NCBI GenBank assembly: GCA_029255605.1
Contig: JANLJF010000065.1
Location: 1-45,648, forward strand
Source of the DNA: Azovibrio restrictus
GTDB lineage: Bacteria; Bacteroidota; Bacteroidia; Chitinophagales; Chitinophagaceae
Direction: 5' to 3'
Length of the DNA: 45,648 nt
Position 1 is the stretch's first letter. Each line of letters opens with the position of its first letter. A program made the position numbers and the translations under genes. The notes below the pieces were generated by a model, which was not told the origin of the DNA, made no database searches, and saw nothing but the letters and a program-made list of their open reading frames with translations. Of the stretch, positions 2,682 through 26,584 are shown one piece after another.

Positions 2682-5600
2682 CTATTTCTTAAAAACAATA
2701 TTAATTTTATATTCTATTCCTATTCCTAGCTTTACCCCCCCCCCAATACTTATCTTTCCGGCTGGCATTGTTTTTGGCGCGGGCTTAGTTTGTACGCCCC
2801 AAGCTTTTTGATATGTTCCAGTTGTCGCGACCCCGCTACCGGCACCTTTCCCATGACCAATATTAAAACCACCTTCTGCTTTAAATTCCCCATTCATTGC
2901 TGGTCCTCCTCCTTCAGCAGCTACAGAGAACTTATTCTCAACACCAAGTGTGAATACTTCTTTTACAGTGACCCCACTGGCGGATTTTAGGTTTATCAAT
3001 CCATCCTTTCCAGCCCAATTGATTTCTGTATTTAAAGCTCCGCCTGGAATAGGTTTTAAGTAATTGTCACCACTTTCTTTTAATGTATTTTTTAGAGATG
3101 CTACATCCATGCTTAAAGCGTTAACTTCAACACCATGCTGTATAAGAGGTGCATCAATCTCATATCCGGCCTGAACACCTAATGTAACTTCGACATCCTG
3201 TGTTATTTCAACATTTTTCCAAATTTCTTTTATTTTTTTTGCTATTCTAGAAAAAAAATTGGGCCGTGTAGCCGCTATAACTACATTGTTCAACATAAAG
3301 TTTATGTTAGCTATGTTAAACATTGGCCTACCGCCGCCGCCGCCGCCGCCACCACCACCAGCATCGCCCATGACAAGTACATCCCCATTATAATAATTAT
3401 TTGCAGCCCAGGCACGATACTCAGCAACCGACATAGATGCAACAATAAAACCAAAGCCATCAACTTCCAAATCTCCTCCCTCACCACTTCCATTAGACGA
3501 AATCATCCCTGTAGGATCGACGTCATTTGCAGGATCGTTAGCCATACCAGTGTATCCGCTTGGAAACTGATTGGCCGGATCTACTCCCCAGAATCTGCCT
3601 AGTTGAGGGTCGTATTGACGAGCATGAAAATCATAAAGATCAAGATTTAGTTCTGTTTGAAGCTTTTTACTTTGATACAGATACTTGTTTTCTAAGTCTG
3701 GCAGTATAGCTGTTTGAGGATCTATTAGCCTTCCGTGCGGATAGTAATGTTGCTCCTCGAGCTGGCGGCCAGAAACAACGGTAATGTTAGTGTTATCAAT
3801 ATGCAATTTCATTGCAGACTCAAGACTTATATATGCCATTACATACCCTGTAGCCTCTACAGTATATGTTGCATCTTTATCGAGACGATTCCAAACGTTA
3901 GAGCCGCCCTTTAGTTGCGTGATGCTTGATTGGTCAGGCAAAAGATTCATTTGTTGATCGAAGACCAAAAAATTTAGATATAATCTTGGGTATGCAGGGT
4001 CTGTAATGTTATTCTTAAGGTTTTCGTAAACATTATAGTTAGAAGGATTTAATATTGCACTCATAACTGGCTGTGATATACTGGGTGTTCCGCCTTCACC
4101 ACCACCTACTAAGCCAGGACCACTAAAAGTAGTAAGCAGCGACTGAAACATATCTTCTGATGGAGCATATGTATTGAAATTTATGCTGTCAGCAGCCTCG
4201 TAATATGCCCAAGAATGCAGATCAATCTGATCTCCTGGTCGAGCTTTAAATATAATTGCCGTGCCCATACGTTTTGCAGGGTCTAAGCCATCTAATTCGC
4301 CACTCATTACATCGCCCGGAGTACCTACAGGCTTCGATTCGCGGATTGGAGCGATTTGTGTAAACAGCGCCTCTTCTGAAGGAGCACCAGCCATTTCAAA
4401 ACCAGCCCAATAATCCATAGTTGCATAGCTAATGTCTGTAGTGAGCACAGATCTAACATTTCCTAAATGATCTTTTATAAAAAAATCATTTTTAAATTTG
4501 AGGCTGTCCTTCATCCAACGTGTGCGTCCCTCATCATGCGAAAAAAACTGCATAATATTATCGCGATACTGAAATGGTCCCCAATATTTATAGGTAGTAT
4601 CAATACCGCCTACATTTGTTGTCTTTTGTACTATATTACCCAATCCATCGTATATGTTCTTGACGGAATTAGATCCGGAATTTATTTGCGTGGGTAAATC
4701 AAGGTAGTTGTAAGTAATGGACTGTATTCCTTTATTTAAGTCTGAGCTCAGGTTTCCGTTTTGATCATAAACATAATCACTCCCAGATACATTGCCATCA
4801 AAGAAGTCATTTGTTCCATGGTTAGCAGCATTATCTATGACGCGGGCTAGTCTATTTGAGTTTATCTGGTACTGATACTGTAACTGATCTACCACCACTT
4901 CAGATGCACTAGAGTTTAAATCCTTCTGTTGCATCGCCATTATATTACCATTGTGGTCATAATTCAAACCCCAAGTACTGTGCTTATCACTACTCCAATA
5001 TGGGGGTATAATCCAAGGTGGTATTGAAGCATTATATTGCAGCACACGTTCATTAAAATCAGCAAACGTCATCCTGCCTGCCATATCATATCCATATCCG
5101 TATGAGCGAGGCATAGACAATGAACCAGTTCCCCTCCATATGTAGCCTGCTATTGTACCATCATAACGTTTTTGCTGAAAACCATGGTCATAATAAATGT
5201 TTTCTCCATAAGTCATCTTGTTATTATATGTAGGGTCTTCTACATATTTCTTGTTAATACTAATAATCTGACCTCTTATATTGTACTTATACTCTTGTTC
5301 TTCAACATCTCCAATAGCTTTTTTAATCAACTTGCCTCTCTTATCATAGCTATAAGAAGATAATGTCAACCAACCGTTATTGTCAACATTTTGCTTGACG
5401 TCTATTAACTGACCTGTATACTCATTATAATTGTATTTAGTCATTACGATCGTCTGAGGCTTAGTTGTTCCGCTCCAAGCATTATGTTCTTTTATATTAA
5501 AAACAAGGTCGCCTGTGAAATTATATTGATTGAATTCTACATCCCATGTAGTTGTAGTAGCCCAGTGATTCTTGCTATGCGTCTGTAGCAGTCTACCAAA

Positions 5601-7046
5601 TTCATCATAGAAGAAAACCTTTGATATCCAAAGGTTATTATTAAGTGGATCTAAAACACGTACTTGAGATCCGACTTGCAGTCCAAAAGATTTAAATTTA
5701 TGAACCTGATGAGGTCTAATAGTCTGACCAGTTAAAAAATCGGTAGCATAAGATGTCGAATAGTTTCTTCCAGCCATGGGAGAAGGCATGTTATTGTAAT
5801 TATCGTAATAATTAACAACATTAATCTCGCAGCCTGGAAGTGTTGTTGGTGGATACTGATAGCGATTATCGAACCCTTTTGCCAAATAATAATCTATCGT
5901 ACCATTAGGAGGGGTCGTACTAACAATAGATTGCCATGCGCTTTGTGAATTACTACTTTGAACGAGACCACTAAATGCCACCCTGTCCATGTCATCGTAA
6001 ACGTTAAATAACCATTTTCCTTGCTGGGCCAACAGTGGAGATTGTTCTAGCACCATCCTATGTTTTCGATCGTATACGAATCTACTTACTCCTAATTGAT
6101 CAGGCACTTTGCTTTCAATAACCTCTCCAAAGGCATTGTATACGTTGTGATAGCATAATCCGTCCAAAGCTGATGCCGACGGCGTCCAACCTACACCACT
6201 AATAGTTGCGGTTACCTTAGGAGTAAGTAACCAAACTAGCTTACTAAAGTCGTCATATACATAGTAAGTTTCAAGCCATCCGTTATCTATCTTTACCTTT
6301 TTACAGATTAGTTGGCCACTTTTATTATAATATTCTTGGGTTTCTGCATTATGCTCTCCATTTTTTATTTCTATCCTAATCTGGCCTGTTGAATAAGCGC
6401 CTGTAATCTCAGGTGCGCCTAACCCATTTAATGAAAATATCCATATGTTTCCGGCAGTATTATTATTATATATTGTATGCGTGCTTGTTCCTCTGTTACT
6501 GCCTGCAAAAGATGCCCCTGGGGAATATTTTTTGTGATAGACAAAATTTGTTTGTGGATCAATTTCAATTTTATCGATATCGAAGCTATTACCTAATTCC
6601 ATGCTATACTCCGGATAGGCACTGCTATTGTAAAATGTCCTTTGATCGTTAAATGGGTCATTGTGAAATGAGGTATTACGCCCATTGATATAAGGCAAAA
6701 ATGTGTACGCTGTCAATTTTGCGCGTTGGTCATTCGGAGTAATGATATCATCAACGGTTAGCGAGCCTGTCTTGATACTCTGAATAGGGTTTTCCCAACC
6801 ATTAAAATAAGTAGTGTTAACACTTATCTTACCCCATCCAATAGGAATACTGCTGGTAGCGTAACGTGGCTTAAAAGTCCTATTATAATTGAACGCGTTT
6901 GCACTTAAATTAACACCTAAAAAATTTGGCAGCGTAAAAGTTGCTGGTGTGCCTGATGGGTTATCATTTTCTATTGGACGATTGACCTGTCCATAGCTAT
7001 TGGTTGCTACAATTAGAAATGTAATGCTTGCTATAAATCTGAACAT
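2682..7046 (-). CDS. RHS repeat protein with core domain and variable C-terminal tip
   Basis: 1454 aa. Residues 1-19 form a Sec signal peptide ending in ...NSYG. The N-terminal part (FNYNRTFKPR and following, then WLFNVYDDMDRV) resembles the DUF6443-type start of Bacteroidota RHS proteins. Many YD/RHS repeats follow (YDDFSKLVW, YDEFGRLLQ, YDKRGKLIK, YDQNGNLSS). The RHS-associated core includes DFHARQYDPQLGRFWGVDP and ends with D1175-V-D-P-T-G, matching the DPxG autoproteolysis motif at the core border. After it come a ten-glycine linker (about 1228-1239) and a ~215-aa tip rich in Gly and beta-strand-like segments, which I cannot assign to a known toxin fold. RHS cores form shells that enclose their C-terminal cargo; toxin activity is inferred from architecture. 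The preceding gene is 25 bp upstream. Confidence 0.9.
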   Translation of the reverse strand: MFRFIASITFLIVATNSYGQVNRPIENDNPSGTPATFTLPNFLGVNLSANAFNYNRTFKPRYATSSIPIGWGKISVNTTYFNGWENPIQSIKTGSLTVDDIITPNDQRAKLTAYTFLPYINGRNTSFHNDPFNDQRTFYNSSAYPEYSMELGNSFDIDKIEIDPQTNFVYHKKYSPGASFAGSNRGTSTHTIYNNNTAGNIWIFSLNGLGAPEITGAYSTGQIRIEIKNGEHNAETQEYYNKSGQLICKKVKIDNGWLETYYVYDDFSKLVWLLTPKVTATISGVGWTPSASALDGLCYHNVYNAFGEVIESKVPDQLGVSRFVYDRKHRMVLEQSPLLAQQGKWLFNVYDDMDRVAFSGLVQSSNSQSAWQSIVSTTPPNGTIDYYLAKGFDNRYQYPPTTLPGCEINVVNYYDNYNNMPSPMAGRNYSTSYATDFLTGQTIRPHQVHKFKSFGLQVGSQVRVLDPLNNNLWISKVFFYDEFGRLLQTHSKNHWATTTTWDVEFNQYNFTGDLVFNIKEHNAWSGTTKPQTIVMTKYNYNEYTGQLIDVKQNVDNNGWLTLSSYSYDKRGKLIKKAIGDVEEQEYKYNIRGQIISINKKYVEDPTYNNKMTYGENIYYDHGFQQKRYDGTIAGYIWRGTGSLSMPRSYGYGYDMAGRMTFADFNERVLQYNASIPPWIIPPYWSSDKHSTWGLNYDHNGNIMAMQQKDLNSSASEVVVDQLQYQYQINSNRLARVIDNAANHGTNDFFDGNVSGSDYVYDQNGNLSSDLNKGIQSITYNYLDLPTQINSGSNSVKNIYDGLGNIVQKTTNVGGIDTTYKYWGPFQYRDNIMQFFSHDEGRTRWMKDSLKFKNDFFIKDHLGNVRSVLTTDISYATMDYWAGFEMAGAPSEEALFTQIAPIRESKPVGTPGDVMSGELDGLDPAKRMGTAIIFKARPGDQIDLHSWAYYEAADSINFNTYAPSEDMFQSLLTTFSGPGLVGGGEGGTPSISQPVMSAILNPSNYNVYENLKNNITDPAYPRLYLNFLVFDQQMNLLPDQSSITQLKGGSNVWNRLDKDATYTVEATGYVMAYISLESAMKLHIDNTNITVVSGRQLEEQHYYPHGRLIDPQTAILPDLENKYLYQSKKLQTELNLDLYDFHARQYDPQLGRFWGVDPANQFPSGYTGMANDPANDVDPTGMISSNGSGEGGDLEVDGFGFIVASMSVAEYRAWAANNYYNGDVLVMGDAGGGGGGGGGGRPMFNIANINFMLNNVVIAATRPNFFSRIAKKIKEIWKNVEITQDVEVTLGVQAGYEIDAPLIQHGVEVNALSMDVASLKNTLKESGDNYLKPIPGGALNTEINWAGKDGLINLKSASGVTVKEVFTLGVENKFSVAAEGGGPAMNGEFKAEGGFNIGHGKGAGSGVATTGTYQKAWGVQTKPAPKTMPAGKISIGGGVKLGIGIEYKINIVFKK
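3331..3350. repeat. CCG trinucleotide run encoding polyglycine linker
   Basis: Nearly seven tandem CCG units, followed by three ACC units (3351-3359), lie in the RHS gene and encode ten consecutive glycines on the minus strand. Slippage would change linker length in whole codons without breaking the frame. The run marks the border between RHS core and variable tip. Confidence 0.85.
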
Positions 7047-12448: not shown

Positions 12449-12466
12449 CCTGTTCTGGGCACACTG
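12449..12466. repeat. Left att-like direct repeat
   Basis: CCTGTTCTGGGCACACTG is identical to 24668-24685 in the same orientation, and its last 10 bases recur at 26531-26540. It is the probable left end (attL) of the integrated element. I could not fold a tRNA or recognise tmRNA upstream, so the target gene is unidentified. Confidence 0.75.
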
Positions 12467-15324: not shown

Positions 15325-15918
15325 TTACATTTTTTCTTTAATAAAAGAGGATACAGTTAGCCTATGTACCCCTAATAATCTACCAATTCCACTAACAGAG
15401 ATTTTTTTCTTCAATAGACGCCTTATTTCTTCTTCCTGACCGCTAAGCTTTAAGCTGGTAGCTTTTCGCCCTTTAGGCCGACCTAAAACGACACCTTCGG
15501 CCTTTTTACGTGCCAGTGCTTCCTTTGTACGTTGTGATATCAGATTCCGTTCAATTTCTGCAGATAGGCCAAACGCGAATGCCAGCACCTTAGAATTGAT
15601 ATTGTTACCTAATTCGTAATGTTCTTTGATAGTATATACCTGTATTTCCTTTTCCATGCATAAATGCAGTATACTCATAATCTGCATTAGGTTTCTACCC
15701 AGCCTGGATAGTTCTGTTACAATTAGCTGATCACCTTTCTGCATCCGTAGTAGCAGCTTACCAAACTTCCTGTCATCAAGCCGCTTAGTTGCACTAATGG
15801 TTTCTTCTATCCATTCATCTATCACAATACCACGCTGCGTAGTAAACTTTTTGATTTCAAATCTTTGGTTTTCGTTGGTTTGCTTATCGGTGCTTACACG
15901 AATGTATCCGTAGTTCAT
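15325..15918 (-). CDS. Serine recombinase (DNA invertase/resolvase family)
   Basis: 197 aa, the usual length of Hin/Mpi/Tn3-resolvase type small serine recombinases. YIRVST places the nucleophile at Ser9 with Arg7. The catalytic domain continues through ELSRLGRNL and the E-helix (EIERNLISQRTKEALARKKAEG). GRPKGRK links to a C-terminal helix-turn-helix (about 160-195, ISVSGIGRLLGVHRLTVSSFI). The enzyme cuts both strands by 2-bp staggered breaks and religates them. Its start codon is 34 bp from the inverted repeat that bounds the type IIG specificity cassette, outside the invertible segment, so it is the obvious candidate to invert it. It could instead be a resolvase for other sites; the window shows only this pair. 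Confidence 0.9.
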   Translation of the reverse strand: MNYGYIRVSTDKQTNENQRFEIKKFTTQRGIVIDEWIEETISATKRLDDRKFGKLLLRMQKGDQLIVTELSRLGRNLMQIMSILHLCMEKEIQVYTIKEHYELGNNINSKVLAFAFGLSAEIERNLISQRTKEALARKKAEGVVLGRPKGRKATSLKLSGQEEEIRRLLKKKISVSGIGRLLGVHRLTVSSFIKEKM

Positions 15919-15951
15919 GGTTAAATTTTTACCATTAAGATAGCAGAAAAA

Positions 15952-16818
15952 ATGAGCGATTATTTTAGACAGAATAACCTTGCAATTTCAGGGTTCACTA
16001 AGGAAAAAAGTTGGACTGTAAACACTCCTGCTGAAGCAGAAATTAAAGGAAAAGTTGAACAAGCGGGTAAGCCATTGAAGGAATGGGGCATTCAAATAAA
16101 CTACGGAATCAAAACAGGTTTCAATGAAGCGTTCATTATTGACAGCAAATTAAGGGACGATTTGGTTAATAAATCCCCAAAAAATGACGAAATTATACGT
16201 CCGATTTTATTGGGCAAGGATATTAAGCGTTATTCATACAACTGGGACGGTAAGTGGGTCATTTTTACTCGTAGGGGTATAGAAATTGATAGTTATCCAT
16301 TCGTAAAAGAATATTTGTACAAATTCTATGAAAGATTGAAGCCACGGAATAATAATGAGACTGAAGGCAGGAAACCTGGTCCGTATAAATGGTACGAGAT
16401 ACAGGATAATGTCGCCTACTATCAAAGTTTCACAAAGCCTAAAATAGCATGGGGCAACTTGGCTTTAAACGCACAATTTTCACTCATTAAAGATGAGTAT
16501 TATATAAATGCGCCTTCAGCGTTTATTTCATCAGACAGCCTTAGTTTATTAGCAATTCTCAATTCCAAGCTATCTGATTTTTATATTAAACAACTGGGTG
16601 TAACCCGCAATGGAGGTTATTTTGAATACAAACCTATGTTCATTGAGCAGCTTCCAATACCTGAACTAACACCTAAAGAGGATAAGGCACTATCAAACTT
16701 AGCGCAAAGCCTCATCAATACACCTTCAGATAAAATTATCGAGAATAGTATAAACCAAGTAGTATATGATTTGTATGATTTATCTGAAGAAGAGAAGCTT
16801 TATATGGATAGCATTTAA
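15952..16818 (+). CDS. Silent alternative specificity cassette of the type IIG RM enzyme
   Basis: 288 aa, homologous throughout to residues 951-1265 of the type IIG enzyme on the other strand. Both start (M/L)SDYFRQN, both contain SWTV, KPLKEW/QPLKEW, KNDEIIRPIL and a G-(K/R)-DI-(K/R)-R motif, then diverge in the middle (target recognition part), and end in the same Y-x-L-S-E-type tail. It has no nuclease or methylase motif, so it cannot work alone. A weak or absent ribosome site before its ATG and a perfect in-frame 24-bp repeat at its start suggest it is expressed only after inversion joins it to the 950-aa fixed part. The frame is intact, so it is not a decayed fragment. Confidence 0.85.
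   Translation: MSDYFRQNNLAISGFTKEKSWTVNTPAEAEIKGKVEQAGKPLKEWGIQINYGIKTGFNEAFIIDSKLRDDLVNKSPKNDEIIRPILLGKDIKRYSYNWDGKWVIFTRRGIEIDSYPFVKEYLYKFYERLKPRNNNETEGRKPGPYKWYEIQDNVAYYQSFTKPKIAWGNLALNAQFSLIKDEYYINAPSAFISSDSLSLLAILNSKLSDFYIKQLGVTRNGGYFEYKPMFIEQLPIPELTPKEDKALSNLAQSLINTPSDKIIENSINQVVYDLYDLSEEEKLYMDSI
15953..15976 (+). repeat. Left inverted repeat of the invertible segment
   Basis: 24 bases, starting TGAGCGATTATTTTAG, identical to the minus-strand sequence at 17761-17738. It covers codons 1-8 of the silent cassette (SDYFRQN). Partial dyad TTATT...AATAA is visible around its middle, as in serine-recombinase crossover sites. Confidence 0.9.
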
Positions 16819-19800
16819 TTTGTACGCCAAACTTCATCGAAATCATCAATGGCTTTTATTTCTATTTCGCTTAAACCGTAATGATTATAAATTAAGTTGT
16901 TCATAGCGCTTTCTATAGCCGATGAATCTTCGTTATTAGTCTTCATAAACATAATTTGACTTAGAATATCTTTGAAAACTAAGTTCTCAGATACAGATAC
17001 TTCTTTCACTGGTATTTCCTGAAAGAAAATCTTTCTTAACTCCCTTGTACCACCTAATAATTCCGGGAAGTTGTCAATAAAACAATATCTAAATAGTTTA
17101 GAATTAAGGAAGCATGTTAAATATTCTAAAAATTCACCCGTAATAATAAAGCACTTGTTATTGACAAAATAATGCTCGTTTAAATCATAGGTGAAATTCA
17201 TGAATTTCGTTATCTCAGGATATATTATTTTCGGCTGCTCAAACGATTTCCAGTAATTTGCTCCGAACCTTTGTAATGCATACCATTCATATCTAATTCC
17301 TGTTTCTGCTTTATTCCTTTGAGTCAACTGAGCTTTATATTTCATCAAATGGCTGTAAACGTCAGGATATTGCAATTCAAATTGTCTTTCAGCTTCGGTT
17401 GATGCGCCAGCAATATCGGTTTCATGCAAAGGAAAATGCCAAGGGATAAATAATAAATGTTGATCGCTCTTATCATAATAGAATCTTTGGATATCTCTGC
17501 CACGTAAAATCGGACGTATAATTTCGTCATTTTTAGATGATTTCTCAACCAATTCATTTCGAATATTACCGTTAATAATAAAGGCGTCATTATAACCAGT
17601 AAGGATACCTCTGTTTATTTGTAGATTCCACTCTTTTAAAGGCTGGCCTACTAATTCGACTTTAGTTTTAATTTCTCTTTCAATTTGCGATAGTACAGTC
17701 CAACTTTGGTTTGGCGTAAATGTTGATGTTTCAATACTATTCTGTCTAAAATAATCGCTCAAATTTTTTATGCTATCTATGTTCCCATTCAGCATACAAG
17801 TCTGAATTTGGGCTTTATAATCAGCTTTCTCAATTAATAAAATATTAGTATCGACTGTTGCTGCATCGAAAATATTCAACCCTGCAAGGTCTATTAATTC
17901 AAGAGGATTGCATTTAGATAGGAAGAACTGTCTCAACTGCTCACCATATCCAGCACGCATCCACTTATTAGACGTTATATAACACAGGTATCCATTAGGT
18001 TTCAAAAGATGGATTCCTAACTCATAAAATAGGCAGTATATATCTCCAGTTCGGACAAATGTGGTAAAATCTTGAGATTGAAGACAGTCAGCATATCCCC
18101 CCAGCTTCTGCAGTTGAATATATGGCGGATTTCCAATTAGAATGTCAAACCCAGCAAAGTTTCCATCATTATCTAATACTTCTGGAAACTCAAACCGCCA
18201 CTCAAAAGCGTTTCGGTAGTTAACGTTGTCCTTTATTTCTGAAATTTCTTGCTCTATCTTTTCTATTTTCTTTTCAAGATTTTCTATCTTCTTTTTTGTA
18301 GTAGTATCGGGCTTTTTCGTTTCAAATAAGTTACCGCTTTGTAGTTTTACCAATTCACCCCTTGCTTTAGATAACTTCTCACGTCTTTCATCGTGTATGC
18401 TAAAGTATGTCTGAAAGTCCCGTTTTATACCCGCTATAAGTTCAAGTAGTTTACGCTTTTTCTCCCTGTCAGTTTCATTTTTGAAGTCCATTACAGCAGA
18501 GCGGTATTCAGGTATCGTATGGTTAATACTTTTCAGCGCTTTACTCAAATCTGCATTCAGGGCATACCTACTTATTAAGGCATTGCCTACCTTGATGTTT
18601 ATATCAATGTTTGGCAGCGTTTCTAAATCTTTAAAATTGGTTTCTTCTTTGTAGTAAGCATTCTTTAACAGTTCTATCCATAACCGCAGGCGGCATATCT
18701 TAACAGAATTAGAATTTATATCAACACCAAACAAGCAGTTCTCTATTATGGTTTGCTTTTCGTGAAATAGTGTCTTCTGTATTCTCTGACTTTCCTTGCT
18801 ATGGGGATTATATATGAATGGATCGCCGTATTCGTCCGTCATCACCAACTCATCGTTGATAACATCTACAGTATACTCTTTTATACGCTTACCATCACTG
18901 TCTATTAATATTCCTAATTCTGCCTTCAGCGCTATAATTTCGTTCAGTGCAGAAACCAAGAAGTGGCCACTACCGACAGCAGGGTCGCATATTTTAAGGG
19001 AGTTGATTATTTCATTGGCTTCTTGCCTATTGCTTATTTCATTGTGTACATCATTGATACTTTCGCACTTCCAGCCATATCTCTCATTAAATTTTTGAAC
19101 TACGCTCTTTCGGATGGATTCCCTACACATGTACATGGTGATAAATCCCGGTGTGTATATCGAACCATCTTTGTAACCATTAATCTTTTCAAAAACCTTG
19201 CCTAATACTGACGCGTTTATTAATGTGCGGCTATCCTCCTGTATATCGTCCTTCCCTTCGCTGGCAAAATCGTAGGCATCAAGAAAGTCGAATATATACT
19301 CAATTGTTCGTATTGCACCTTTATTCTTATAGTGTCCCTTCAAGACGCTATTGGGCATCAACTCTAAGGTTGTTTCATTGTCAAGAGCATTAATTTTTAC
19401 GGTTTCATCTTCTAACTCACTAATCTCGAACAGGGAACTGTTCAAATACGGCACATTAGCATATTTTTCTTTGATAGCTGCTGGCCTATCTTCTGCTTTA
19501 CGCGCTAAAATCTGATGAAATAATTTATACAATTCATCAAAATCATGTATAGTAGCAGCATTAAGGAAACGTAGTTGCTGGTTGCCTCTATTATATGTGA
19601 TAAGCTGGCCTTCCAGCAGCTTAATAAATAAAATTCTGTTAACCCAAGTAAGGGCTAATTCAACTGCAATATTAAATGCTCTTTCATCTTTGTTTGTGCC
19701 GTACTGTTCAACATTTTTAACCTTATAAAGCTCTTCTGTTTCTAATAAGGTTATAATATTTTCAATTAGGGAGCCTGCATTTCTACTATCCTTCTTTCTG

Positions 19801-20612
19801 CGAATTACATTCTTGCCGGACTCTTTCACCTCCTCCAAGCCAATGATGTAAAGCAGTTCCTTATAAAACTTATCATTCAGCGCATTACTGTCAACTGAAG
19901 ATTTGCGCAGTAAATGGTATGGTGAATGGATTTTGTAAAGGGCTATCAGACTTTTATCCTCTTCCTTGTTGGTATCCTGTAGCGCCTTTTTGTATTTGCG
20001 TATATCAAACCTTGTTACAGGTATTTCATCCTTAATACTATCAATGTACGGCTTAGCAATTTCATTATAAAACAGCGAGGTATCCTTACTAACCTTTTGG
20101 TTATTTTTCCATTCCGTGTATTGCCTTACAAAGTCTTTGTTTTTGGCAAAGTGCTTTTCAAAATACTGTGCGTCAAAAATAAACCACTCATATACGTTGG
20201 TGGCAATACAATTTTTAATATCTATGTTATTCTCGTCTATACGCTCACGCATATAGTATAATACAAGCTCATGTAATGCTTTTGTATTTGGCTTGTCTAA
20301 TGTCAGCATCTCACCTTTATTTCCTGGACGCTTTGCTTCCATTATCACGCCTACTTTATCCTTGTTGCTTTTACCTAAGTGTATTACGAGGTCTGTGGCA
20401 TTCTTGGTATTGACTTCGTTGGTTTCCCGATAGTAGGTATTAAGCAAGAAGTCACGAATATGATTCTTCTGGTTCTCCTCTCTTTCAATTTCATCTACCT
20501 TACCTAAAAGATGTAGCAGGTTGTTTTTAAAGTTATCAATTTCACTGCGTAGCGGACGCAGCTTAATCAACTCTTTAGTGGCGATTTTGGGGGATACCTC
20601 TTTCAGTTTCAT
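16815..20612 (-). CDS. Type IIG restriction-modification enzyme (fused endonuclease, N6-adenine methylase and specificity)
   Basis: 1265 aa, normal for single-chain type IIG enzymes. The N-terminus holds a PD-(D/E)xK nuclease: D74 in ATDLVIHLG and E92-A-K94. A helical connector follows. The methylase has motif I CDPAVGSGHF (D543 onward) and the catalytic motif IV N828-P-P-Y, the signature of N6-adenine methylation. A coiled-coil insert (about 740-800, KKKIENLEKKIEKIEQEI) lies between them. Residues ~951-1265 are the target-recognition region, ending in the conserved NHYGLSEIE tail. It cuts unmodified DNA and methylates self DNA, so it is a defence cargo. The specificity region begins at a 24-bp inverted repeat and can be exchanged for the 288-aa cassette. 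BREX PglX is an alternative label, but no other brx genes are present and the nuclease motif favours IIG. Confidence 0.92.
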   Translation of the reverse strand: MKLKEVSPKIATKELIKLRPLRSEIDNFKNNLLHLLGKVDEIEREENQKNHIRDFLLNTYYRETNEVNTKNATDLVIHLGKSNKDKVGVIMEAKRPGNKGEMLTLDKPNTKALHELVLYYMRERIDENNIDIKNCIATNVYEWFIFDAQYFEKHFAKNKDFVRQYTEWKNNQKVSKDTSLFYNEIAKPYIDSIKDEIPVTRFDIRKYKKALQDTNKEEDKSLIALYKIHSPYHLLRKSSVDSNALNDKFYKELLYIIGLEEVKESGKNVIRRKKDSRNAGSLIENIITLLETEELYKVKNVEQYGTNKDERAFNIAVELALTWVNRILFIKLLEGQLITYNRGNQQLRFLNAATIHDFDELYKLFHQILARKAEDRPAAIKEKYANVPYLNSSLFEISELEDETVKINALDNETTLELMPNSVLKGHYKNKGAIRTIEYIFDFLDAYDFASEGKDDIQEDSRTLINASVLGKVFEKINGYKDGSIYTPGFITMYMCRESIRKSVVQKFNERYGWKCESINDVHNEISNRQEANEIINSLKICDPAVGSGHFLVSALNEIIALKAELGILIDSDGKRIKEYTVDVINDELVMTDEYGDPFIYNPHSKESQRIQKTLFHEKQTIIENCLFGVDINSNSVKICRLRLWIELLKNAYYKEETNFKDLETLPNIDINIKVGNALISRYALNADLSKALKSINHTIPEYRSAVMDFKNETDREKKRKLLELIAGIKRDFQTYFSIHDERREKLSKARGELVKLQSGNLFETKKPDTTTKKKIENLEKKIEKIEQEISEIKDNVNYRNAFEWRFEFPEVLDNDGNFAGFDILIGNPPYIQLQKLGGYADCLQSQDFTTFVRTGDIYCLFYELGIHLLKPNGYLCYITSNKWMRAGYGEQLRQFFLSKCNPLELIDLAGLNIFDAATVDTNILLIEKADYKAQIQTCMLNGNIDSIKNLSDYFRQNSIETSTFTPNQSWTVLSQIEREIKTKVELVGQPLKEWNLQINRGILTGYNDAFIINGNIRNELVEKSSKNDEIIRPILRGRDIQRFYYDKSDQHLLFIPWHFPLHETDIAGASTEAERQFELQYPDVYSHLMKYKAQLTQRNKAETGIRYEWYALQRFGANYWKSFEQPKIIYPEITKFMNFTYDLNEHYFVNNKCFIITGEFLEYLTCFLNSKLFRYCFIDNFPELLGGTRELRKIFFQEIPVKEVSVSENLVFKDILSQIMFMKTNNEDSSAIESAMNNLIYNHYGLSEIEIKAIDDFDEVWRTN
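17738..17761 (-). repeat. Right inverted repeat of the invertible segment
   Basis: Reverse complement of 15953-15976, 24 of 24 bases identical. It lies inside the type IIG gene and encodes LSDYFRQN from residue 951. Beyond it the two regions drop to ordinary homology, so the exact stretch stands out as a maintained recombination site. Confidence 0.9.
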
Positions 20613-20715: not shown

Positions 20716-21585
20716 TCATTCACTGTATTTTTTCAATAGATATGCCAGTGTGCCTAACGAATAATGATATTTTGTTTTTAGGCACGCATCATATTGCCTA
20801 TTGCAATTGTCATGGTTGTATTTGTTAGATAAGCTACTAATATCATGATATTTTGCACGGCCAGCTTCGCCGTAAATATTAGCAATGGCACACCCTGCGC
20901 CGAACCAATCGCTATATACTTCTGTAATGTCTGTTTTAAGGCTCAAAATTTCGGCCAATATCCTGTCTGAGGCTTTTCTATCTACACTGCGGTTGTGGGC
21001 GTGTAATGAGGTCTTTATCGGTGATTGCAGACATTGGGTTACAGGTATAGCATGATGGTTTACATATGGATCTGCGTCGTAGCTTATGCCCCGTAAGCGA
21101 CATACATCTTTGCAGGCTTTATCTATATAAATACCATATGACGTTAGAAAAAACAATTCCATAGCTTTAAAATGCTGCTGGTGCTTTTCTGGGTATGCAA
21201 TGGGTATGACCGTGTATACTCCTTTCCCCGAAGCCGACAAACCCGCAAAAGCGATATTTGGTACTTCTGCCATTTGAAATTTAAATGCAATCCAGTCATC
21301 AACACTGGGATTGTCCTTGCCATCAATATCAATACATATGAACCCGCTATGCTTCACTAACGTATTTATGCTTCGTTTTTTCTTAAAAATGCCGCTCGGT
21401 GTACATGCAGGCAACTGAGCCTTTAACTCCCTTATAGTTTCCGAATTGCTACATTTGCGAATCTCTAATATTTCGTCTTTATAGCCTTTGTTTACTAACC
21501 ATTTATATAGCGGCATTGTGGCAAAAGGTTCAGGCGAATTAAAATCCCTGTATATGCTTATTTCCCCATTTAAAGTAGATTTCAT
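20716..21585 (-). CDS. PrimPol-type (BT4734/VirE-N) protein with PriCT-2 domain
   Basis: 289 aa. Residues ~20-185 resemble the BT4734-like/VirE N-terminal domain: FICIDIDG supplies a D-x-D metal-binding pair, SASGKGVYTVIPI the following strand, and VCRLRGISYDADPYVN the conserved Arg/Asp segment. The C-terminal ~75 residues (YSDWFGAGCAIANIYGEAGRAKYHDIS to LLKKY) fit the PriCT-2 primase C-terminal domain. Such proteins prime replication of mobile elements, usually beside a helicase. Here the DUF3987 ATPase gene lies 59 bp upstream on the same strand, separated by a striking 30-bp palindrome. It has no helicase part of its own, so the two genes probably act as a split primase-helicase. Confidence 0.8.
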   Translation of the reverse strand: MKSTLNGEISIYRDFNSPEPFATMPLYKWLVNKGYKDEILEIRKCSNSETIRELKAQLPACTPSGIFKKKRSINTLVKHSGFICIDIDGKDNPSVDDWIAFKFQMAEVPNIAFAGLSASGKGVYTVIPIAYPEKHQQHFKAMELFFLTSYGIYIDKACKDVCRLRGISYDADPYVNHHAIPVTQCLQSPIKTSLHAHNRSVDRKASDRILAEILSLKTDITEVYSDWFGAGCAIANIYGEAGRAKYHDISSLSNKYNHDNCNRQYDACLKTKYHYSLGTLAYLLKKYSE

Positions 21586-21601
21586 GAAATTTACATTTAG
21601 A

Positions 21602-21631
21602 ACCTGTTTCTGTTTCGAAACAGAAACAGGT
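21602..21631. promoter_or_regulatory. Perfect 30-bp palindrome with tandem TGTTTC units
   Basis: Arms of 15 bp meet without a loop. Each arm contains TGTTTC twice in tandem, mirrored as GAAACA twice. It lies in the 59-bp gap between the ATPase and primase genes. Iterated hexamers in a dyad suggest a binding site for a dimeric or multimeric protein, such as an origin or operator of the element. As RNA it would form a strong hairpin, but no T-run follows on the minus strand. Confidence 0.6.
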
Positions 21632-21644
21632 GTGTTAACATTTG

Positions 21645-23060
21645 CTATTTTTTAATTACTCCAGCTTTTGTAAGCCAACGATATACTGTACCACTAAGCT
21701 TTGCATTATTCAAGACCTTAGCAGCAATCTGCCTGTATGTTAGGCCACCTTGTAGATAAAGTTCGATACACAGCTGTTTCGCAGCTAACTTATCGGTTTC
21801 ATCCGCCAATGGCTGGCTATTGGTTCTACGACTGAACTGCATTAAGAAATCATACACTTTCATACTGTGGTCGAGGAGCGTTGTAGTTATCATCCAGGCA
21901 CATTTAAAATCCACCTCTTTGCACATTATATCTTCCTCCAATTCTGATAGCTTATATGATGGGGAATAGCTACGGTAAATAGATAATATCATGGCGATAC
22001 GGGTAAATATCAATGCGTACCTATGTATGACACCATCCATTTCCTCTGTGTGGACATCTCTGTATTCAGATTTTAATTTCTGGAACCTCATCTGCATACG
22101 TTGACTTTGTTGCTTAGTAAGGCAAAAAAACAATGGCGTTTCCTTGCGTTGCACAAGCTGACTGTGAACTTTCTTTACAATCTCCGCCTTAACACTCACA
22201 ATATCCCTGAACTTTCCACGGCTACCTTCAAAAGGATTTTTAAATTCATGTGTTGATGGTGCCATATAAAACATGAACCTGCTAAATAGCCCATCCTCGG
22301 TATCACCAAAGAATGTTACCAGATGCTTTGGCGTACTCGTCAATAACATAGACAGGTAGGGATTTTCTATTTCTACAGTACCATCTGACTTACGGCTACA
22401 GCTAAACATTTCATGATGGAATGCTTTAAGTATCAAATCTGAAAAGCCTCCATGCTCCTGCCGTAGTGCAGTGGATAGCGTAGCTGCTTCCGTTTCACAA
22501 ATAATAGCACGCCCATCATTGTCTGCCATCAACCGATAGATATTGCTTTTGGTGTTATTAGCTGGCATAAGCAGCATTTTATTACAATCTGACAACTCAA
22601 TGGGCTTAGGGGCTTCTTCGATATCATCTTCATCATAAACCTTTTTACGCTTGATTGTTCTCGTCTTCTCATACTGCTCACGCGCAACTTTGGCATTTCC
22701 CGCCAATTCTCTGTGAATAGGCATTACCAGTTCTTGACATTTTTTAAGCATCCCTTTACCGACCCCAGCAAAACCGTATAAGTATCCGTACAAATTAGCT
22801 TCATAATGTTCATCCATGTAGGCCACTTTGTAGTTAGGAAGAACACCGCTTAACAGAACCAAAGAGCAAAAAACCGCGATATCAGCTTCCCCGTTATCAT
22901 TGCAGCTTTGTACGATATCTTTAAAAAAAGGCGGTAGTAACTCAAATACTTCTTGCTGAAATTTTGGGTAACTATTAGTTTCACTAAAAAGGTCATTCAA
23001 ATGCTCATCTATCGAGCGCGTCTTTTCACTGCCGTCTTTACGGCTGTATTGCTCCTTCAT
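21645..23060 (-). CDS. DUF3987 helicase/primase-like ATPase
   Basis: 471 aa. Walker A is GFAGVGKGM (residues ~96-104), Walker B-like IICETEA follows, and STPKHLVTFFGDTEDGLFSRFMFY carries the sensor and arginine-finger type residues usual in DUF3987 proteins of Bacteroidota mobile elements. A Lys/Glu-rich insert (KTRTIKRKKVYDEDDIEE) separates A and B. The C-terminus is a helix-turn-helix (TYRQIAAKVLNNAKLSGTVYRWLTKAG), as expected for DNA binding. It probably unwinds or loads at the element's origin together with the downstream PrimPol protein. It lies 17 bp after the excisionase-like gene in the same operon. Confidence 0.85.
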   Translation of the reverse strand: MKEQYSRKDGSEKTRSIDEHLNDLFSETNSYPKFQQEVFELLPPFFKDIVQSCNDNGEADIAVFCSLVLLSGVLPNYKVAYMDEHYEANLYGYLYGFAGVGKGMLKKCQELVMPIHRELAGNAKVAREQYEKTRTIKRKKVYDEDDIEEAPKPIELSDCNKMLLMPANNTKSNIYRLMADNDGRAIICETEAATLSTALRQEHGGFSDLILKAFHHEMFSCSRKSDGTVEIENPYLSMLLTSTPKHLVTFFGDTEDGLFSRFMFYMAPSTHEFKNPFEGSRGKFRDIVSVKAEIVKKVHSQLVQRKETPLFFCLTKQQSQRMQMRFQKLKSEYRDVHTEEMDGVIHRYALIFTRIAMILSIYRSYSPSYKLSELEEDIMCKEVDFKCAWMITTTLLDHSMKVYDFLMQFSRRTNSQPLADETDKLAAKQLCIELYLQGGLTYRQIAAKVLNNAKLSGTVYRWLTKAGVIKK

Positions 23061-23393: not shown

Positions 23394-23420
23394 AAAAAAT
23401 GGGACACAATGTGTCCCATT
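23392..23420 (-). terminator. Intrinsic terminator of the integrase gene
   Basis: Perfect 11-bp arms (23398-23408 and 23410-23420) with a 1-base centre are followed on the minus strand by eight Ts. The hairpin begins in the integrase stop codon. Confidence 0.85.
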
Positions 23421-24465
23421 AAAAAGTAGGTAATAACTGTATTTGTTTCTCCTTCATACTATCAGCAATCCTGATATAGCGCTGAGTATATTTTACACTT
23501 CTTTGTCCCATTAGGCTGGAGGCGACCAGAATATTTGCTCCATAAAAGATGAGATTGGTTCCAAACGTATGCCGACCACAGTGCCATGTTATTTTCTTAT
23601 TTACCCCTGATTTAACTACCCATTCTTTCAGCACCTTATTGCACCCATTAAGAGTGGTAGGCAGGGCAAATACCAAATCGTCTGGCCGACCAACTACTGG
23701 CAAAAATCTCACGGCAATCTCATGCAAATCCACAGTTACATTATAACCTGTCTTCGCCTGTGTCATACTGACCTTCCCTTCGGAAATATGCTTCCACCGC
23801 AAGCGAGAAACATCACAGTACCGTAAGCCAGTAAAGCAAGAGAATATAAATGCGCTTTTTACTGCAACGTTAATACAGCCAGCGCCAGCCAACACCTTCA
23901 ATTCATCCATTGTGAGCACTTCTTTAGGAATACCTTCCTTACGCTTCATTCTGATATCTGCGGCTGGGTTATTGGCAAATATGCCTTCCTTTGTTGCGTG
24001 CTTCACCACCTTACAGAATAACTTAAAGTAATTGTGGGGTGTTTCACCTGATAGACTATCCTCTAAAAACCCCTTAAACCTCACTAAAAAGCTTTCATCT
24101 TCTACTATCGTAAATGGCAGTATACTTTTAGGGTAAAACAACTTCAATTTGTTTAACACGGCGCTGGCGCGACGCTCTTTTGTTGGAAACCTAACGAAGT
24201 AATCGTTGTAATATGAAAAGAAATCACCTTTCTTCTTATTAACAGGCAATGCCACTCTATTATTCAGCAGGTCATTTTCCTTTTTTACCCGCAGCTTTTC
24301 AAATCTTAGAAGATTATCTTTATTTAGCTGTTTGGTTCGTTCGTCTTTAGCTGGATAAATATGTAACCCTGTAGCCTCTTGCACCCTAACACCGTCAATT
24401 CTATAGTCAAGATAAAGTGCAGTACTCTTTTTCAATTTTCGTTCACGTTTGATTACTTTGATCAT
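23419..24465 (-). CDS. Tyrosine recombinase / integrase
   Basis: 348 aa. It has an N-terminal arm-binding region with Lys/Arg, a core-binding SAM-like domain (about 80-165), and a catalytic domain with R215 (TGLRYCDVSRLRW), H295-x-x-R298 (HCGRH) and nucleophile Y330 (YTQRYIRI). The histidine often seen in L-G-H is a glutamine here (M-G-Q321), a tolerated variant. It catalyses integration and excision at the 18-bp repeats. The gene lies ~200 bp from the right repeat (24668-24685), reads inward, and has TGTACCCA-like sites between it and the repeat. Terminator at 23392-23420. Confidence 0.93.
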   Translation of the reverse strand: MIKVIKRERKLKKSTALYLDYRIDGVRVQEATGLHIYPAKDERTKQLNKDNLLRFEKLRVKKENDLLNNRVALPVNKKKGDFFSYYNDYFVRFPTKERRASAVLNKLKLFYPKSILPFTIVEDESFLVRFKGFLEDSLSGETPHNYFKLFCKVVKHATKEGIFANNPAADIRMKRKEGIPKEVLTMDELKVLAGAGCINVAVKSAFIFSCFTGLRYCDVSRLRWKHISEGKVSMTQAKTGYNVTVDLHEIAVRFLPVVGRPDDLVFALPTTLNGCNKVLKEWVVKSGVNKKITWHCGRHTFGTNLIFYGANILVASSLMGQRSVKYTQRYIRIADSMKEKQIQLLPTF

Positions 24466-24667: not shown

Positions 24668-24685
24668 CCTGTTCTGGGCACACTG
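24668..24685. repeat. Right att-like direct repeat
   Basis: Exact copy of 12449-12466. It is followed by a 45-bp stretch with a terminator, repeated at 26541-26584, so this junction belongs to both elements. Confidence 0.75.
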
Positions 24686-26490: not shown

Positions 26491-26530
26491 TACTTCCTAT
26501 AGGTCAGGCATCAAAAAATGAACTAAACCG

Positions 26531-26584
26531 GGCACACTGAAAAATGAAGCAGTTATGAATAAACCTCATTGCTGCTTTTTCTTT
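26531..26584. repeat. Long direct repeat, right copy (second insertion)
   Basis: Matches 24676-24730. The bases before it (CTAAACC) differ from the 24668 copy, so the identity begins at GGGCACACTG. From here on sequence composition changes to the core-genome type. Confidence 0.85.

Follow-up and report, generated by a model that had tools for sequence, protein, structure and literature searches.

A type IIG restriction-modification gene with a predicted invertible recognition tail beside an Mpi-family recombinase

Genes and inverted repeats at the locus

The stretch of DNA analysed here (hereafter the window) comprises 45,648 nucleotides of contig JANLJF010000065.1 from the Bacteroidota assembly GCA_029255605.1, and its positions 15325 to 20612 hold a type IIG restriction-modification (R-M) locus in which the recognition part of the enzyme appears to be exchangeable by DNA inversion. 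Three open reading frames (ORFs) make up the locus, and all three are intact. The largest, at 16815-20612 on the minus strand, encodes an enzyme of 1265 amino acids with a nuclease region (DUF7149, DUF7814), an Eco57I N6-adenine methylase and a TaqI_C recognition tail. The second, at 15952-16818 on the plus strand, encodes an alternative, silent recognition tail of 288 amino acids, which holds a TaqI_C domain without a methylase or nuclease part. The enzyme ORF and this cassette lie tail to tail, and their stop codons overlap at 16815-16818. The third ORF, at 15325-15918 on the minus strand, encodes a serine recombinase of 197 amino acids.

The putative outer crossover sites are marked by a perfect 24-bp inverted repeat, TGAGCGATTATTTTAGACAGAATA, which is identical in both arms. 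The cassette arm is located at 15953-15976 (plus strand), and the enzyme arm at 17738-17761 (minus strand), in the linker between the methylase core and the recognition domain. Both ORFs read the repeat in one frame as SDYFRQN, corresponding to residues 952-958 of the enzyme and residues 2-8 of the cassette. The recombinase ORF starts at 15918, which leaves a gap of 34 bp to the outer repeat. The coordinates given for the enzyme, the cassette, the repeats and the recombinase in a preliminary description of this DNA all held on recheck, as did the shared frame of the repeat and the 34-bp spacing. The same is true of its claim that the enzyme and the opposite-strand cassette have a homologous C-terminal region in common, as the two tails can be aligned with 37% identity in amino acids, 24% in codons and 51% in nucleotides.

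A second, longer repeat inside the segment had been overlooked in the preliminary description. This inner inverted repeat (IR1) is perfect over 30 bp (cassette arm at 16180-16209 on the plus strand, enzyme arm at 17505-17534 on the minus strand), encodes KNDEIIRPIL and stands directly ahead of the TaqI_C match. The reading frame is preserved by inversion at the outer pair as well as at the IR1 pair. The in-frame inverted repeats of this locus are placed such that a single constant 5' part could be joined to either of two 3' parts. The 1809 bp between the outer sites (15953-17761, no strand assigned) are predicted to be invertible, and residues 952-1265 of the enzyme would form the invertible part of its recognition tail.

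Chance, or mere conservation of the protein, was considered as the origin of the repeats. When the codons of both tails were shuffled synonymously 5000 times, a run of at least 24 at the outer site was obtained in 0.04% of the shuffles (P = 0.0004; P = 0.004 for such a run anywhere in the tails), and a run of at least 30 at the inner site gave P = 0.0004 (P = 0.0008 anywhere in the tails). On the strength of these shuffles, of the cassette-free relatives and of the between-locus control described below, both origins were rejected. A promoter scan was uninformative (26 found versus 23.9 expected).

The assignment of the enzyme to type IIG, already proposed in the preliminary description, was supported from several sides. 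The enzyme matches the domains DUF7149, DUF7814, Eco57I, MmeI_Mtase and TaqI_C, and the PADLOC model REase_MTase_IIG fits it over its full length (E = 3e-264). In an alignment of 24 sequences, D74, E92 and K94 of the DUF7149 region were invariant, an arrangement which we take to be the pattern of a PD-(D/E)XK nuclease. The methylase motifs DPAVGSG and NPPY are legible in the translation. One chain combines a nuclease motif with adenine methylase motifs and a single recognition domain, which is the hallmark of type IIG.

Two other classes of system were tried and rejected. For bacteriophage exclusion (BREX) with its methylase PglX, no brx or pgl partner was detected by PADLOC among nine neighbours, and the PglX models scored far under the cut-off. 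For a type I R-M system, no separate HsdR, HsdM and HsdS genes were present among the neighbours scanned.

The cassette matches the TaqI_C domain only. Its structural model is of moderate quality (predicted local distance difference test, pLDDT, 63), and its fold matches in the PDB are clear (M.BseCI, CamA and MmeI chains). By its domain match, the cassette is a TaqI_C recognition domain. When the enzyme was aligned with CamA, the outer repeat landed past the methylase core and ahead of the recognition part, a position which is, on the alignment, a sensible swap point.

The silent tail may also be translated on its own. The codon preceding the site is ATG in 12 of the 24 silent cassettes that have the codon AGC there, the window included, and TTG in 26 of 29 active copies. 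This codon difference fits an alternative in which the cassette's own ATG serves as the start codon of a separate recognition protein that modulates the enzyme, inversion being secondary. However, the ATG is not universal, one cassette having TAG and others ACG or AGG, and several of the cassettes are close relatives. Moreover, we know of no TaqI_C domain that works alone. This alternative is regarded as highly improbable.

Recurrence of the layout and conservation of the site

Relatives of the enzyme were collected, and the best 80 loci were listed. In eight of these 80, an inverted tail piece follows the gene, and six of these have a recombinase in the same locus. A further six of the 80 break off at a contig end, with a recombinase relative located on a separate contig; five of these partner recombinases lie within about 0.5 kb of the end of that contig, and one is cut inside its gene. 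A search with the recombinase gave matches in 9 of 395 genomes of the phylum and 11 of 394 genomes of the family, with the window's own genome counted in each. Among the 19 rows other than self, 13 have a forward copy and an inverted copy of the tail next to them, two stop in the outer site at a contig end and four have no such tail. These rows include the genomes of loci L003, L058 and L010 and are therefore not independent of the best 80 enzyme relatives.

The layout is also present in sequenced isolates, such as Chryseobacterium taeanense DSM 17071 and Pedobacter ginsenosidimutans KACC 14530. The family of C. taeanense yielded a recombinase match in 36 of 320 genomes (38 rows). After G1415:C9, with its four in-frame stops, was left out, both tail copies were seen in 25 of 37 rows (the query's own included), two of them fragmentary, and in seven of the other 12 rows, the contig ends no more than about 2 kb from the recombinase. 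Such tails are borne by two dissimilar enzyme bodies: the DUF7149/DUF7814 body and a shorter one, which has 26-31% identity to the window enzyme in an alignment that starts only at about residue 240-380. A plasmid collection contained 23 records with a related protein. A DNA search of the plasmids with L028 gave one match, a Bacteroides finegoldii plasmid with a frozen tail, and a DNA search of a phage collection gave no match.

The conservation of the repeats was followed in 45 loci, whose relatedness makes them non-independent. L152 and L265, which share their genomes with L010 and L005, respectively, had been dropped from this set. The codon identity between the forward tail and the cassette exceeded the between-locus control most at SDYFRQN (0.76 versus 0.34). 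The excess was smaller around AEIIRP (0.60 versus 0.44) and around YWEDFSK (0.60 versus 0.45), and the codon identity was 0.05-0.24 across most of the last third of the tails. These site codons are not conserved in relatives without a detected cassette. The residue ahead of the proline of IIRP, for instance, is lysine in 82% of the cassette-free relatives and arginine in 90% of the invertible copies.

A 21-nt site matrix was trained on the outer site of the invertible loci, and scores above 8 were counted. At the outer site, this threshold was exceeded in 58 of 66 invertible copies, a number that is high by construction because the matrix was trained on those loci, and in 1 of 48 controls. At a further inner repeat of the relatives (IR2), it was exceeded in 54 of 83 invertible copies and in 0 of 65 controls. 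For IR1, the counts were 12 of 80 invertible copies and 1 of 64 controls. The best second site of a tail was IR2 in 65 of 90 cases and IR1 in eight, with a mean best score of 10.8 versus 4.2 in codon shuffles. The matches at the outer site, IR2 and IR1 therefore point to a single type of site that marks two or three of the tail's borders. The motif appears to consist of a pair of half-sites flanking a central dinucleotide, which is GA in the window. Both arms of the outer site in the window have the top matrix score, 30.2.

The control above the threshold at the outer site is L024, a probable relic or frozen derivative of the switch, and the one at IR1 is L050. Only 48 controls align at the outer site, and a cassette could be missed in 10 of the 65 controls because fewer than 900 bp follow the tail. 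The columns of the tail profile fit the invertible loci better than the controls because the profile was built from the former. The preliminary description had held that homologous loci with conserved flanks but unconserved repeats would speak against a switch. When this was examined, the outcome favoured the switch: the site was found to be kept where the cassette is present, and where no cassette was detected, it appeared in one probable relic among 48.

A competing explanation attributes the shared repeats to homology and sporadic gene conversion between the two tail copies, with rare exchange through general homologous recombination on an evolutionary time scale and with the recombinase as a bystander. 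Some inner repeats exceed the length of a serine-recombinase site (30 bp in the window, 62 bp in L028, 288 bp in L147), which fits gene conversion. In L147, the active and silent end modules are identical over these 288 bp, as after such an event. The small number of IR1 copies that fit the matrix and the one-sidedness of some exchanges (L005, L268 and L270 versus L269, see below) are also in its favour. However, the outer and IR2 places belong to different protein parts and have one DNA motif, which is hardly ever found in relatives without a detected cassette. Moreover, the recombinase adjoins the cassette in most loci found through the recombinase, several contigs stop on the repeats, and repeats of 18-25 bp are short for RecA-type recombination. 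The bystander explanation is considered unlikely.

The recombinase itself was matched to NCBIfam NF009949 ('master DNA invertase Mpi family') with 325 bits against a cut-off of 272, and to the Resolvase domain PF00239 (E = 1e-33). By these matches, it is an Mpi-family serine DNA invertase, with Ser9 as its presumed catalytic residue. From the conservation of the site and from the contig ends described in the next section, we infer that it inverts the DNA between its sites.

Related recombinases were also seen in other surroundings. At the contig end of L297, one adjoins an HsdS-like start (by our own reading of the translation), and the family may also serve type I systems. At the contig starts of L300 and L301, a related recombinase adjoins sequence resembling the NPPY stretch of a methylase (clearly so in L300), a hint that crossover might also occur at a more upstream point of the gene. 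In L296 (2792-7152), ORFs of 1071 and 382 amino acids lie tail to tail beside a recombinase, and the match to the tail family is limited to the end of the larger ORF; this is perhaps another invertible enzyme type. An oppositely oriented, half-site-like copy between the outer site and the recombinase start of L005 is a possible operator by which the recombinase controls itself. L266 (G009) carries an identical copy of the C. taeanense recombinase, linked to a collagen-like repeat and separated from the enzyme gene by about 70 kb of one contig, probably the result of a misjoined scaffold.

Natural inversions, contig ends and the proposed switch

Both orientations occur in nature among loci related to that of the window. 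Between L028 (Bacteroides oleiciplenus) and L302, an 852-bp block with both end modules is reversed at 95.9% identity and bounded by 31-bp copies of IR2. The flanks are in direct order, with 93% identity in the body and 89% on the recombinase side. The same inversion separates L085 from L028. When L005, L268 and L270 are compared with L269, the end module that is forward in one locus matches, at 86-87%, the end module that is silent in the other.

Three loci, L024, L090 and L303, are chimeric. Their first modules equal the silent cassette of another locus (97-99.6%), and their end module equals that of the active copy (99-100% over about 150 bp). No recombinase was found beside the L303 chimera or within the L024 locus. 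L024 is partly masked, and a cassette is not fully excluded there; L090, the Bacteroides finegoldii plasmid, has an annotated recombinase-family gene elsewhere on the plasmid. The three chimeras, in which no cassette was detected, are probable frozen products of the switch. A different change was observed in L085 (9065-9331), where the middle module of the tail lies reversed at its usual position when compared with L302 (99.6%) and the enzyme is broken. This is either an OFF state or a metagenome misassembly.

The ends of several contigs coincide with the repeats. L003, the closest relative of the window, and the recombinase contig L091 end on identical 25 nt at the outer site, and L042 and its partner contig L158 end on identical 18 nt at IR1. 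The contig of L018 stops on the final base of an 18-bp repeat, of which an inverted pair is present in L006, and the contigs of L016, L008 and L280 stop in IR2. L030 and its partner contig extend about 100 bp beyond IR1, and L050 and L031 stop elsewhere. These ends may be an indirect sign of both orientations: an 18-bp repeat should not break an assembly unless both continuations occur. Of eight type IIG genes truncated at their 3' end by a contig end, six belong to the invertible kind, versus 8 of 72 other genes (Fisher P = 0.0002), in a post hoc test in which one truncated gene, L031, was not searched for a recombinase.

Taken together with the conservation of the site, the natural inversions and contig ends make a recombinase-driven swap of tails by inversion of the 1809 bp, with exchange of modules in relatives, the best explanation, and it is held to be very likely. 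The Mpi-family recombinase would pair the two outer sites at the linker between the methylase and recognition domains and flip the segment, presumably still doing so in this strain. The constant body of the enzyme (nuclease and methylase, residues 1-951) would be fused in frame to either the present tail of 314 residues or the silent tail of 287 residues, the latter giving a second full-length enzyme of 1238 amino acids. Both forms are presumed to be active and to differ in specificity. Cutting and methylation would change their specificity together, because both activities of a type IIG enzyme depend on a single recognition domain, as is established for the class and deduced here.

In relatives, sites at the inner borders would allow parts of the tails to be exchanged too. 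In the window, nested inversions at the outer site and IR1 could give up to four tails, because IR1 is kept there. The chances appear about even that the arrangement is an in-gene shufflon. In such a shufflon, one invertase site motif would stand in frame at up to three borders (the linker, the start of TaqI_C and the middle of TaqI_C), and the parts would be exchanged independently to give hybrid specificities, also in a living population; for the window, this would mean four tails from two copies. The switch by inversion proposed in the preliminary description gains from the inversion that separates related loci, but its two-state picture of alternating specificities is probably too simple because the inner repeats also recombine in relatives.

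Several observations weigh against the tail swap. The assembly of the window's strain contains one arrangement alone, and the clear inversions separate related strains or species, not members of one culture. The exchange between L005, L268 and L270 on one side and L269 on the other is one-sided, and a reciprocal module pair was not found among them. The contig ends are indirect evidence, and an assembler that uses short words could fail at 24-25 bp even if no inversion took place. In the window, IR1 scores weakly (5.9 and 11.1, versus 30.2 at the outer site) and IR2 has been lost (scores of -7.4 and -22.2). The recombinase family is not exclusive to this job, because relatives also occur without this tail: in the four of 19 non-self rows of the phylum and family samples and in 46 of 49 viral-contig loci (L160-L208), many of which are short. 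The viral-contig loci with the tail are L161, L166 and L191, which represent two elements, the same as L086 and L085. As to the nuclease, the N-terminal 470 residues were modelled with a pLDDT of 84, and a Foldseek search of this nuclease-region model against the PDB gave no significant match, the best being the type IIG enzymes BpuSI (E = 0.16) and DrdV (E = 0.37).

The single assembled arrangement would also fit a frozen relic, in which the cassette is a dead duplicate and inversion has ceased in the window's strain. Relatives lend this some support, as L090 and L303 are frozen recombinants without a cassette and others are degenerate (L267, and L128 and L154 with stops in the recombinase). 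Nevertheless, the ORFs of the enzyme, the cassette and the recombinase are all intact at the present locus, and the 24-bp repeat is perfect at both outer sites, which also have the top matrix score. In addition, the contig ends of the closest relative, L003, fall at exactly the outer site. A frozen relic is thus very unlikely, and the recombinase-driven tail swap is preferred.

Carrier element, known systems and implications

The switch most likely rides on an integrative element of about 12.2 kb that is bounded by copies of a tRNA-Leu 3' end. Two attachment-like 18-bp direct repeats are located at 12449-12466 and 24668-24685, both on the plus strand. Their sequence is the 3' end of an apparent tRNA-Leu gene in three genomes of the same genus (tRNA identity by our own reading), and 0.02 matches with up to three mismatches would be expected (100 shuffles). 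Downstream of that tRNA-Leu end, a terminator-like sequence follows nearly as at the right copy in the window; no tRNA gene was found within the window. A tyrosine integrase (23419-24465, minus strand) lies about 200 bp inside the right repeat, and domain matches identify primase-like (BT4734_N and PriCT_2) and DUF3987 genes at 20716-23060 on the minus strand. With these repeats and genes, the carriage on a mobile element suggested in the preliminary description is probable. A further remnant resembling a tRNA end and terminator at about 26530-26584 suggests stacked insertions. To the left of the element, the window encodes at 2682-7046 a protein of 1454 amino acids with DUF6443 and RHS-repeat matches.

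Gene-altering programmed inversions, with type II R-M among the new target families, were reportedly described by Milman, Yelin and Kishony in 2023 (Nucleic Acids Research). As proposed here, the 3' part of a gene is said to be swapped with an inverted silent copy. In BREX, PglX reportedly has an inverted silent copy and a recombinase (Goldfarb, 2015), and the tail of this class-gamma adenine methylase is said to be exchanged by inversion; the window enzyme differs in having a nuclease motif, in scoring far below the cut-off of the PglX models and in having no BREX protein among the nine neighbours scanned. The preliminary description had called a switch at this class of enzyme much less described. 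This holds in part only, and the switch would not be a new kind of system because inversion of type II systems and of BREX PglX has reportedly been observed. The phase-variable type IIG enzyme of Campylobacter jejuni (Anjum, 2016) also shows reversible variation that alters methylation, there reportedly through a repeat tract and here through inversion. Mpi of Bacteroides fragilis flips many capsule promoters. The recombinase of the window belongs to the same NF009949 family, and its putative sites are inside a coding region, with the recombinase beside the gene.

In the invertible HsdS subunits of type I R-M systems, expressed and silent recognition domains are exchanged by inversion, and methylation and restriction change together, according to passages of PMC7394358 and PMC6265443. 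Such HsdS phasevarions resemble the present locus in exchanging recognition domains between an expressed and a silent copy. Here, in contrast, one polypeptide serves restriction, methylation and recognition, there is no S subunit, and the recombinase is an Mpi-type serine enzyme. A passage of a 2018 paper (PMC6265443) describes a coordinated change of specificity as hard for type II systems, with the exception of a Helicobacter pylori type IIG enzyme that acts by frameshift. A passage of PMC7379913 states that recognition domains move within and between H. pylori genes, type IIG included. In these H. pylori cases, the recognition domain or target changes too, and the passages of PMC7379913 and PMC6265443 mention no inversion by a dedicated recombinase. 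No inversion in a type IIG gene appears in the passages of PMC5903667, PMC6265443, PMC12707154, PMC11868660, PMC11892184, PMC13076061, PMC10333322, PMC7394358 and PMC7379913, which says nothing on other papers. Likewise, an in-frame site motif at several borders of a recognition domain, with an adjoining Mpi-type partner, is not described in the passages found.

For a type II enzyme, a change of target is normally unsafe, since cutting and protection have to switch at the same time. A flip-over tail on a one-chain enzyme would solve this in one step. If the inner sites work, the natural recombination of parts of recognition domains would reveal the points at which such domains tolerate being cut and rejoined, which is of practical interest for making new restriction specificities. 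Working inner sites would also enable mobile elements in Bacteroidota to diversify both phage defence and the host's methylome among the cells of a clone.

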